A stretch of DNA of 32,690 bases from Actinomycetota bacterium (GTDB lineage Bacteria; Actinomycetota; Acidimicrobiia; Acidimicrobiales; Ilumatobacteraceae). The notes under the pieces were generated by a model. That model worked only from the letters and a program-made list of their open reading frames with translations, had not been told where the DNA came from and ran no database searches. Shown piece after piece: positions 3,739 through 18,100 of the stretch (position 1 is its first letter; every line of letters begins with the position of its first letter). A program made the position numbers and the translations under genes. The DNA lies in NCBI GenBank assembly GCA_017856115.1, contig JAFMFM010000020.1:1-32690 (forward strand), read 5' to 3'.

Positions 3739-4515
3739 TCAGAAGTCGTTTCGGACATTCCACAGCTCCGGAAAGACCGGTCGAAACAACGTCGACATCA
3801 AGTACTCGGCTCCGGACGAGCCGCCAGTGCCATGCTTTCGTCCGATGGTTCGCTCGACCATCTTCACGTGTCGGTAACGCCACTCCTGGAGTCCTTCGTC
3901 GATGTCCACCAGTCGCTCCAACACCAATGCGGCCTCCGGGTCGTTTCGGTAGGCGTTCAGCACGACGTCACGAACTTCCGCCGAATCGGCTTTTTCCAGC
4001 GCGCTGGAATTCGATCGCGACGCCAGATAGGTCAGCGTGTGGTGCCATAGGCCGGGACGGGTGAGTGCCCCGGAAAGCCGATCATGCTCGGGCGAACCAG
4101 GCAGAAAACTTGCAAGGACCGCGTCGTCGCGTCGACCGAGGACTATCTCCAGTTCACGGAACTGCGCGGATTGAAACCCACTTGCTGCATCCAGCCGATC
4201 ACGAAACGTACCGAACTGAAGGGGTGTCATCGTTTCGAGGATGTCCACTTGTGACACGAGTGTCTTGAAAATCGTACGGATCCTGCCCAGCGTCGCCACT
4301 GCATCGTGCGACCTACCGACCTGAAGGAGTTCCGCTGCCCGAGACAGTTCGTGGAGCAGTGTTTTGAACCACAACTCGTACGTCTGATGTATGACGATGA
4401 ACAACAACTCATCGTGTTCGGGGCCGCTGGCTCGGGGCTGTTGCAGGGAGAGCAACTCCGGAATCTGCAGGTACGTGGCGTAGGTCGTGGCGCTCTGTGA
4501 GTGCGTACCGCTCAT
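3739..4515 (-). CDS. kynA: Tryptophan 2,3-dioxygenase
   Basis: Heme enzyme that opens the indole ring of L-tryptophan with O2 to give N-formylkynurenine, the first step of the kynurenine route. The 258-residue sequence shows the distal HDELLFIVIHQTYELWFK block with His34, the FGTFRDRL segment, the proximal heme ligand in WRYRHVKMVERTIG (His216), and GTGGSSG (230-236), which closes over the substrate. The gene is divergent from kynU with only 11 bases between the two ATG codons. A -10 hexamer TAGTGT sits at -12 to -7, so the mRNA should be leaderless. The formamidase needed between KynA and KynU is not in this window. Confidence 0.97.
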   Translation of the reverse strand: MSGTHSQSATTYATYLQIPELLSLQQPRASGPEHDELLFIVIHQTYELWFKTLLHELSRAAELLQVGRSHDAVATLGRIRTIFKTLVSQVDILETMTPLQFGTFRDRLDAASGFQSAQFRELEIVLGRRDDAVLASFLPGSPEHDRLSGALTRPGLWHHTLTYLASRSNSSALEKADSAEVRDVVLNAYRNDPEAALVLERLVDIDEGLQEWRYRHVKMVERTIGRKHGTGGSSGAEYLMSTLFRPVFPELWNVRNDF

Positions 4516-4529
4516 AACGTGACACTATG
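4513..4529. promoter_or_regulatory. Interlocked divergent leaderless promoters of kynA and kynU
   Basis: The block CATAACGTGACACTATG contains both start codons. On the plus strand TAACGT (4515-4520) is at -12 to -7 of kynU. On the minus strand TAGTGT (4527 down to 4522) is at -12 to -7 of kynA. Each hexamer begins on the A position of the other gene's ATG. No Shine-Dalgarno can fit for either gene. Two polymerases could not occupy both sites at once. Confidence 0.7.
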
Positions 4530-5789
4530 TCATCCGTGGCTTTACCCGACGTTGACGCCCTCGATCGTCACGACCCGTTGGCGTCGTATCGCGAGCAGTT
4601 CGTGATGGCCGACCCCGACGTGTGTTATCTCGACGGAAACTCGTTGGGTCGATTGCCGAAGCGAACGGTCGACATCGTGCATCGGTACCTCGTCGAGGAG
4701 TGGGGCAGGGAACTGGTGGCAGGTTGGTCGCATTGGATTGATGAAGCCCAGCAGGTGGGCGACCTCATCGGCGACGTCGCGCTCGGGGCTGCACCGGGGC
4801 AGGTACTTGCAGTGGACACCACGAGCGTGAATTTCTATCAGCTGTGTGATGCCGCGCTTCGTGCCCGACCGGATCGAAGCAGGGTGGTGAGTGACCTCGC
4901 CAATTTTCCGACCGATCGGTACGTTCTCGAGGGTCTCTGCGATCGTCATGGCAAGCGACTTGAGCTGATTGATGACGAGTTCGGGGCGGAGTACGTGAGC
5001 CCCGCGATGCTCGCGGAGCACCTCGACGACGACACCGCTCTCGTCACGCTGTCCGTGGTGCAGTACCGCTCGGGTGCGCTGCACGACGTGGCAGAACTCA
5101 CCCGGTTGGCACACTCCGTCGGGGCACTGGTGGTGTGGGATGCAAGTCACGCAGTGGGCGCGGTGAATCTTCACTTCGATCAACACGACGTCGACTTGGC
5201 GGTGGGCTGCACCTACAAGTACTGCAACGCCGGACCCGGTTCGCCAGCGTGGTTGTACGTCAACCAGCGACTGCAGGGGGAGCTTCGAGTTCCGATCCAA
5301 GGTTGGTTCGCCCAGCGCGACCAGTTTGCGATGGGGCAAGGGTTCGAGCGCGCCGACGGGATGCGAGGCTTCCAGATTGCCAGCCCGTCGATCGTCGGCA
5401 TGCGTTGCATCCAGGCGTCGTTCTCAATGATCGCCGAAGCGGGGCTGCCCGCGATTTCGGCAAAGGCGGCACAGGGAACCGAATTGATGGTGCAGTTGCA
5501 CGACGCATGGCTTGCACCACTTGGATTCGAACTGATTACACCTCGTGAACCCGAGCGGCGGGGAGGTCACATAACGTTGCGCCATCCCGATGCAAAACGG
5601 ATCGCCGCCGCGATGCGCGAATTGGTGAAAGTGATTCCCGATTACCGCGAACCGTCAAGCATTCGCCTGGCAATTTCTCCACTTGCGACGAGTTTTCGTG
5701 AAGTTTGGGACGGTTTCGAGCGCATTCGCGACCTGGTGTCGAGTGGTCGCTATCAGTCAGTGCAACACTCGGTGAATCGGGTTACCTGA
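4527..5789 (+). CDS. kynU: Kynureninase
   Basis: PLP-dependent hydrolase that cleaves L-kynurenine to anthranilate and alanine (or 3-hydroxykynurenine to 3-hydroxyanthranilate). The 420-residue length is normal. Landmarks are YLDGNSLG (34-41), ANFPTDRYVLEGL, the cofactor-binding Asp205 in VVWDASHAVGA, and CTYKYCNAGPGSPAW with the Schiff-base Lys231. With divergent kynA it forms a tryptophan-to-anthranilate catabolic pair. The start is ATG 4527, preceded by TAACGT at the leaderless spacing. The gene converges on the racemase-like gene with a 32-base gap holding a small inverted repeat. Confidence 0.96.
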   Translation: MSSVALPDVDALDRHDPLASYREQFVMADPDVCYLDGNSLGRLPKRTVDIVHRYLVEEWGRELVAGWSHWIDEAQQVGDLIGDVALGAAPGQVLAVDTTSVNFYQLCDAALRARPDRSRVVSDLANFPTDRYVLEGLCDRHGKRLELIDDEFGAEYVSPAMLAEHLDDDTALVTLSVVQYRSGALHDVAELTRLAHSVGALVVWDASHAVGAVNLHFDQHDVDLAVGCTYKYCNAGPGSPAWLYVNQRLQGELRVPIQGWFAQRDQFAMGQGFERADGMRGFQIASPSIVGMRCIQASFSMIAEAGLPAISAKAAQGTELMVQLHDAWLAPLGFELITPREPERRGGHITLRHPDAKRIAAAMRELVKVIPDYREPSSIRLAISPLATSFREVWDGFERIRDLVSSGRYQSVQHSVNRVT

Positions 5790-7418: not shown

Positions 7419-8006
7419 CTAGAGCGACGGTTCGGTCTTCGAGCGGAGACGTCGGATGTTGGGCAGGTGTTTGATGATCACGAATCCAACCACGCCGAGG
7501 ACGACGTACAACTCCCAGGGCCGAGCGTCATCGATGAGCATGCCAACGGGTGTTGCAATGGTGATTGCGAGCGACGCAACCGATGCCTTGCGTGTGATCT
7601 TGCTGATGACGAACCACGACACGAACAACACCGCACTCACTTCCGGAAACAGCACGAAGAGTGCCCCACCGCCCGATGCAACTCCCTTACCACCGCGAAA
7701 CTTTCGCCAGACGGGGGCAACGTGTCCGACGATTGCTCCGCACATGGCGGCATACGCAAGTGGCCCTCGTTGCTCACCACTCACCGCCCAGGCAATACCG
7801 ACTGCAATCGCGGCCTTCGCCATGTCCATGAGGAAGACGGCCATCCCCGCCTTCCAGCCGAGTTCACGAATGACGTTCGATGCCCCGGGATTTCCCGACC
7901 CCACCTTGGTGATGTCCTTACCGAATCGCTTGGCGACCAGGTCCGCACTCGGAAATGTGCCGAGAAGGTATGCCGCAACCACAACGACGACATCAGATAG
8001 GTCCAT
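7419..8006 (-). CDS. plsY: Acyl-phosphate:glycerol-3-phosphate acyltransferase
   Basis: Integral membrane enzyme that transfers an acyl group from acyl-phosphate to glycerol-3-phosphate, giving lysophosphatidic acid, the first step of phospholipid synthesis. The 195-residue protein has the three PlsY motifs: GTFPSADLVAK near the N-terminus, GSGNPGASNV in the middle, and KFRGGKGVASGGG. Hydrophobic helices separate them. Unlike several neighbours it has a leader: GGGAG lies about 10 bases before the ATG, and TACACT (8028 down to 8023) could be its -10. It precedes dedA in the minus-strand envelope run. Confidence 0.95.
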   Translation of the reverse strand: MDLSDVVVVVAAYLLGTFPSADLVAKRFGKDITKVGSGNPGASNVIRELGWKAGMAVFLMDMAKAAIAVGIAWAVSGEQRGPLAYAAMCGAIVGHVAPVWRKFRGGKGVASGGGALFVLFPEVSAVLFVSWFVISKITRKASVASLAITIATPVGMLIDDARPWELYVVLGVVGFVIIKHLPNIRRLRSKTEPSL

Positions 8007-17399: not shown

Positions 17400-18100
17400 T
17401 GTCACCACGAACCGCCGGTGAGCTGGCTCGATTCATCGATCACACCTTGCTTGCACCTGAAGCAACGCGCGACGAGGTGCTCGACGCGTGTCGCAACGCC
17501 ATACGGTGGCATGTGGCGGCGGTTTGTATCTCGCCGTCCTGGTTACCGCTGCCTGCGGGCACGATGCCAGCAGCGAATGGTGGTGGTGAGTCGGAGACGG
17601 CTCTCTGCACCGTGGTGGGTTTTCCGTCGGGCGCACATGCATCGCTCACAAAGTCGCACGAAGCGAGCCTTGCCGTGATGAATGGTGCAACCGAAGTCGA
17701 CATGGTGGTGAACCTCGGATCGGTGCGCGACGAGCGGTGGCTTGAAGTGCAGGATGAGGTACGGATGGTGAGGAGTGCCGTGGATGCCGTTCGGCGTGAC
17801 GTGGTGTTGAAGGTGATTTGTGAGTCGGCTGCCTTGAGTGATCACGAATTGCGGACGACGTGCAAGGCGGTCGTCGCCGGTGGTGCCGACTTCGTCAAGA
17901 CGAGTACCGGATTCCACAAGGCGGGAGGCGCCACGGAACGTGCAGTCATGATCATGCGTGAGACGGTTGGTGCGGACATCGGCGTGAAGGCGAGTGGCGG
18001 AATACGCACGACCGCGGCAGCACTGTCGATGATCGCGGCTGGTGCAACGCGAATCGGGGCTTCCGCGACGCGAGAAATCCTGGCGGGGCTACCGGACTAG
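17399..18100 (+). CDS. deoC: Deoxyribose-phosphate aldolase
   Basis: Class I aldolase cleaving 2-deoxyribose-5-phosphate to glyceraldehyde-3-phosphate and acetaldehyde, the last step of deoxynucleoside catabolism. The 233-residue protein has FIDHTLL (12-18), TVVGFPSG, EVDMVVN (Asp101), the Schiff-base Lys167 in ADFVKTSTGF, and the relay Lys197 in GVKASGGIRT. The start ATG at 17399 overlaps the monooxygenase stop by one base, so the pair is coupled; the link could be incidental or could concern acetaldehyde metabolism. It ends on CTAG, which is also the stop of the convergent purine nucleoside phosphorylase gene, another nucleoside-salvage enzyme. Confidence 0.95.
   Translation: MSPRTAGELARFIDHTLLAPEATRDEVLDACRNAIRWHVAAVCISPSWLPLPAGTMPAANGGGESETALCTVVGFPSGAHASLTKSHEASLAVMNGATEVDMVVNLGSVRDERWLEVQDEVRMVRSAVDAVRRDVVLKVICESAALSDHELRTTCKAVVAGGADFVKTSTGFHKAGGATERAVMIMRETVGADIGVKASGGIRTTAAALSMIAAGATRIGASATREILAGLPD

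Follow-up and report, generated by a model that had tools for sequence, protein, structure and literature searches.

A bidirectional, -10-only promoter proposed for the divergent, predicted leaderless kynA and kynU genes of Ilumatobacteraceae

How can two divergent genes be served by separate promoters when their start codons lie only 11 bp apart? The question is raised by kynA and kynU in the stretch of actinobacterial DNA analysed here (32,690 nucleotides, hereafter the window), where the kynA ATG stands at 4515 (minus strand) and the kynU ATG at 4527 (plus strand). An earlier, sequence-only reading had described an 11-base gap with a TANNNT hexamer at -12 to -7 on each strand, which proved correct to the base in the sequence of positions 4513-4529, CATAACGTGACACTATG. 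It had also placed the beginning of each hexamer on the start codon of the partner gene (TAACGT from 4515, TAGTGT from 4527), and this too is seen in the window. The features of the locus are the following:

3739..4515, minus strand: kynA, tryptophan 2,3-dioxygenase, 258 aa, predicted leaderless (PF03301, 4.5e-60; TIGR03036, 1.3e-68; PDB 2nox, 1e-45)
4515..4520, plus strand: putative -10 hexamer of kynU, TAACGT, at -12..-7 (from the sequence; TANNNT at -12 in 34/35 loci, at -14 in one)
4515..4527, no strand assigned: shared 13-bp core TANNNTNANNNTA, predicted bidirectional promoter whose two outer bases are the predicted transcription starts (intact in 34/35 loci)
4521..4521, no strand assigned: lone base separating the two hexamers (G in most loci, C in G202)
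4522..4527, minus strand: putative -10 hexamer of kynA, TAGTGT, at -12..-7 (from the sequence; TANNNT at -12 in 12/35 loci, at -14 in 23/35)
4527..5789, plus strand: kynU, kynureninase, 420 aa, predicted leaderless (TIGR01814, 2.8e-72; PF22580, 1.2e-22; PDB 1qz9, 3e-83)

The TIGR scores of both proteins fall below the curated equivalog cut-offs (that of kynU narrowly, 243.8 against 246.4), and the two gene names are therefore to be taken at family level. The annotated neighbours encode a uracil-DNA glycosylase and sulfatase-like, alanine racemase-like and DedA-like proteins; no regulator gene was identified among them. In the window, the 120 bp upstream of each gene contain no further TANNNT. 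A sigma-70 -35/-10 scan of positions 4200-4900 returned no match, as expected, since promoters of the type discussed below carry no -35 motif in this organism. On the pathway itself, that of tryptophan breakdown, the 95%-complete genome G000 gave no match to PF04199 (KynB-type formamidase) although the first and third steps are present, while its congeners G003 and G009 gave one match each; G000 may use another hydrolase for the second step.

Leaderless genes preceded by a lone -10 element are ordinary in this clade. The genome to which the window belongs was surveyed in stretches totalling 880 kb, with 834 genes called by a simple codon-usage finder; because its start calls are approximate, the candidate starts near each call were pooled. 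Among 209 genes with a divergent upstream neighbour, 48 carry TANNNT at -12, against about 4 per offset between -30 and -16, and offsets -13, -14 and -15 show a slighter excess. The same sharp peak at -12 is found in two congeners. No -35 motif was detected in the 115 genes with a -12 hexamer, and it is from this absence together with the peak that we conclude leaderless, -10-only promoters to be commonplace here. The survey agrees with the figure of about 20% leaderless genes in Actinobacteria and with the TAnnnT form reported for high-GC genomes (PMC3160421). In the genes with a -12 hexamer the base at -1 is C in 64% and T in 18%; the start codons of genes with TANNNT at -12 (G000, G003 and G006) are GTG in 59% and ATG in 41%. 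Both kynA and kynU bear the hexamer at the enriched position of about -12, and the Shine-Dalgarno cores GGAG, GAGG and AGGA are absent before both genes in all 35 loci compared below.

Conservation among relatives carries the larger part of the argument. A search of 221 genomes of the family with kynA yielded a match in 70, and among the loci read 34 have the divergent pair, to which comes one contig (L005) that holds kynU and the block and ends inside kynA, 35 in all: 10 in genus g1, 3 in g6 and 22 in g4 (Ilumatobacteraceae). Where relatives are named, most are Ilumatobacteraceae or metagenome assemblies of unclassified Actinomycetota. One record (L037, CAMAWR010000005.1) is labelled 'Bifidobacterium breve'; its kynU is 79% identical to that of the window and it is very probably a mislabelled Ilumatobacteraceae metagenome assembly. 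In this group of freshwater actinobacteria the gap between the genes measures 11 to 13 bases, and TANNNT is kept on both strands in 35 of 35 loci across the three genera. The sequence-only reading had named hexamer loss in relatives that keep the pair as the sign against it; no such loss was found in the 35 loci.

The 11-bp gap occurs in 12 loci with seven distinct sequences. Positions 4516, 4520, 4522 and 4526 never vary among these, and each of the other seven intergenic positions does. The invariant columns are exactly the four intergenic positions that the two-hexamer model requires, a split with a probability of 1/C(11,4) = 1/330 if columns are exchangeable. A maximum-likelihood tree of 31 loci places 17 changes in the seven free columns (2, 4, 2, 1, 4, 2 and 2) and none in the key columns, an outcome for which (7/11)^17 gives about 5e-4; both tests treat the columns as independent. 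Every locus has T at -1 of kynU, the base that the kynA hexamer needs as its A-11, despite the preference for C at -1 among genes with the -12 hexamer. The 22 g4 loci, with a 13-bp gap, keep the core TANNNTNANNNTA intact and the same hexamer-to-hexamer geometry, with the kynA ATG 2 bp further out. A natural spacing variant is found in G011 (L088), the one locus in which 3 bp separate the hexamers (CATAAGGTGAGACACTATG), two more than elsewhere, and where the start spacing predicted from the hexamers is 10 bp, one of the common start spacings reported in E. coli (PMC12825309). Beyond the two hexamers, no motif common to the genera was found among the 35 loci.

All 35 loci matched with ATG on both sides, which in the 11-bp form the shared -12 base requires; the search with the 13-bp block itself demanded ATG. 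Frame breaks adjoin the block in three genomes: G009 (L082) has a tandem-repeat-like insertion at a contig end, after which kynU and the ATG of the block are in different frames; kynU of G017 (L107) meets an in-frame TGA at codon 11; and in G071 (L091) the kynA frame is broken after six codons. These may be assembly errors.

From this evidence we read the kynA-kynU gap as a bidirectional, -10-only promoter that gives rise to two leaderless mRNAs, with a probability of roughly 0.85. RNA polymerase with the housekeeping sigma factor would read TANNNT on either strand of the core and would begin transcription on the start codon of whichever gene lies ahead, or no more than about 2 nt away from it; both mRNAs would be translated with no Shine-Dalgarno leader. 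In the window the first A-T pair of each start codon would double as the T at -12 in the partner's promoter, and the predicted start of each gene thereby falls on the first base of its partner's -10 element. The earlier proposal of two overlapping leaderless promoters, with starts predicted, thus gains strong support from the comparative and genome-wide sequence evidence. Its description of them as 'face-to-face' has to be replaced: the promoters are divergent and stand back to back, their transcripts leading apart. The melted regions of the two promoters would coincide, and therefore only one polymerase at a time should occupy the site; we infer this mutual exclusion from the geometry.

Whether such exclusion serves as a regulatory device, strong initiation at one promoter repressing the other and fixing the kynA:kynU ratio, is a further step that we consider unlikely. 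The hexamer geometry is unchanged in 34 of 35 loci, those whose gap went from 11 to 13 bp included, steric constraints are reported to bar two polymerases from being on a bidirectional promoter at once (PMC12825309), and the EcoRV system uses overlapping divergent promoters in this way (PMC5333194). Against this, two promoters can be conserved in a short gap without being coupled, and the annotated neighbours include no identified regulator gene. In E. coli, moreover, five bidirectional promoters whose starts are separated by 10-23 bp had basal activities too low for any appreciable competition, which set in only on strong activation (PMC12825309). The narrower proposal, that abutting -10 elements, each drawing on the other gene's start codon, were selected because exclusion or template sharing sets the enzyme ratio, and not merely for a short gap, seems to us more doubtful again.

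The block might instead be the operator of a transcription factor, conserved for protein binding rather than as two -10 elements, and near-palindromes are indeed present: GTGACAC-like in most g1 loci, and TACG...CGTA in g4 and G017. The half-sites, however, are not the same from genus to genus and are disrupted in G009, G202 and G209, whereas the four -10 positions never change; there is also no regulator gene among the annotated neighbours. A palindrome GTGNCAC was rejected as the operator, not being common to the genera. An operator in place of the promoters is thus very improbable, while one overlapping them, alongside the two -10 elements, may be present. Marginally less probable still is the view that the conserved bases represent a kynU Shine-Dalgarno sequence (AAGGTGA before the ATG), with transcription starting inside kynA. 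A weak AGGT/GGTG does lie at the right distance before kynU in 25 of 35 loci, including most of those in g1 and g4. It is lost, though, in the window (CGTGA), G009 (CTGA), G005, G017 and G209, in four CCGTGA loci and in one CTTTGA locus, while G202 reads GGTCA; none is present on the kynA side in any of the 35 loci, and no alternative TANNNT upstream recurs in most of them. Given these losses, and with the invariance of T4526 and A4522 left unexplained, a Shine-Dalgarno sequence was discarded as the principal constraint. That two weak motifs coincide by chance, for which one may cite the weakness of TANNNT and the near-control rate of the other CATANNNTNANNNTATG matches in relatives, none of them at a divergent gene pair, is refuted by the conservation pattern, the hexamers being kept in 35/35 loci while all surrounding intergenic positions changed (a chance match of the four non-start-codon positions is expected at about 0.0013 per start-codon pair, with A and T at about 0.19 each).

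The bidirectional promoter proposed for kynA and kynU has looser counterparts in the same genome. Leaderless-type hexamers lie on both sides in 31 of 106 sampled divergent pairs, the smallest gap being that of kynA-kynU. In the next tightest pairs the predicted starts lie 18 bp (L149) or 23 bp (L151, L137; L074 in a congener) apart. These divergent pairs, with hexamers on both sides, are located at about 7758-7772 (L149), 2717-2734 (L151), 7606-7633 (L137) and 17814-17849 (L074). To judge from these predicted sites, double-leaderless bidirectional promoters look common in the clade and, as the next pairs fall at the classical 18- and 23-bp spacings, the kyn arrangement appears as the extreme of a series and not as an isolated oddity. 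Its exact geometry is another matter: the palindromic double-ATG pattern CATANNNTNANNNTATG has one match in the 1.67-Mb genome (none for the reversed control), and of five other matches fetched from relatives none lies between two open divergent genes. Within the set searched the geometry is therefore peculiar to kynA-kynU, and its use as a general device in the clade was rejected.

Several known systems invite comparison. Bidirectional promoters (Warman et al. 2021, cited in PMC10268837; Warman et al. 2026, PMC12825309) have starts on opposite strands 7-25 bp apart, with reciprocally overlapping -10 positions and starts, are said to generate 19% of E. coli RNAs, and often drive divergent genes with linked functions, bioA/bioB being among the test cases (PMC10268837; PMC12825309). 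The kynA-kynU promoters resemble them in their predicted start spacing (12 bp; 10 bp in G011) and in the reciprocal overlap of -10 positions and predicted starts, a geometry present in 34 of 35 loci. They differ from the commonest class, which has 18-bp spacing and shared -11A/-7T base pairs: no such pairs are shared here, and the kyn hexamers are adjacent, with one bp between them, not superposed, and so do not belong to that class. Further differences are that both kyn mRNAs are predicted to be leaderless, their start codons forming part of the partner's -10 element, and that the kyn starts are predicted from sequence and not mapped. With the leaderless genes described in Actinobacteria (PMC3160421; PMC3898074 for M. 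tuberculosis) the locus has in common TAnnnT, its distance to the start codon and the lack of a strong Shine-Dalgarno core; those genes, however, were described one by one, whereas the kyn locus has two such elements within 17 bp. At the EcoRV CR/M promoters (PMC5333194) overlapping polymerase sites likewise make the transcription of linked divergent genes mutually exclusive, as we infer for the kyn pair, but EcoRV is regulated by a C protein and has a C transcript with a leader; at kynA-kynU neither a regulator gene among the annotated neighbours nor a conserved operator was found.

The sequence-only reading had held promoters packed this tightly to be 'not commonly described'. As a general statement this falls, bidirectional promoters of 7-25 bp being a named class (PMC12825309, PMC10268837). 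Of the double-leaderless form with start codons in the partner's -10 element we found no description in the literature searched on leaderless and on divergent or overlapping promoters, a coverage that is incomplete. Bidirectional promoters and leaderless genes are each well described, and the kyn block belongs to a known kind of system, of which it is an unusually compact example; its peculiarity is a packing so tight that part of each -10 element comes from the start codon of the partner gene.

The kyn block is close to the smallest space that could give two genes separate promoters, its 35 natural variants show which bases are kept, and it joins two usually separate fields, leaderless translation and bidirectional promoters. 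With neither a -35 element nor a leader nor an identified regulator to complicate matters, it offers a clean test case for polymerase competition. For the organism itself, we think that the main consequence is simple co-expression of two pathway enzymes from one minimal site.
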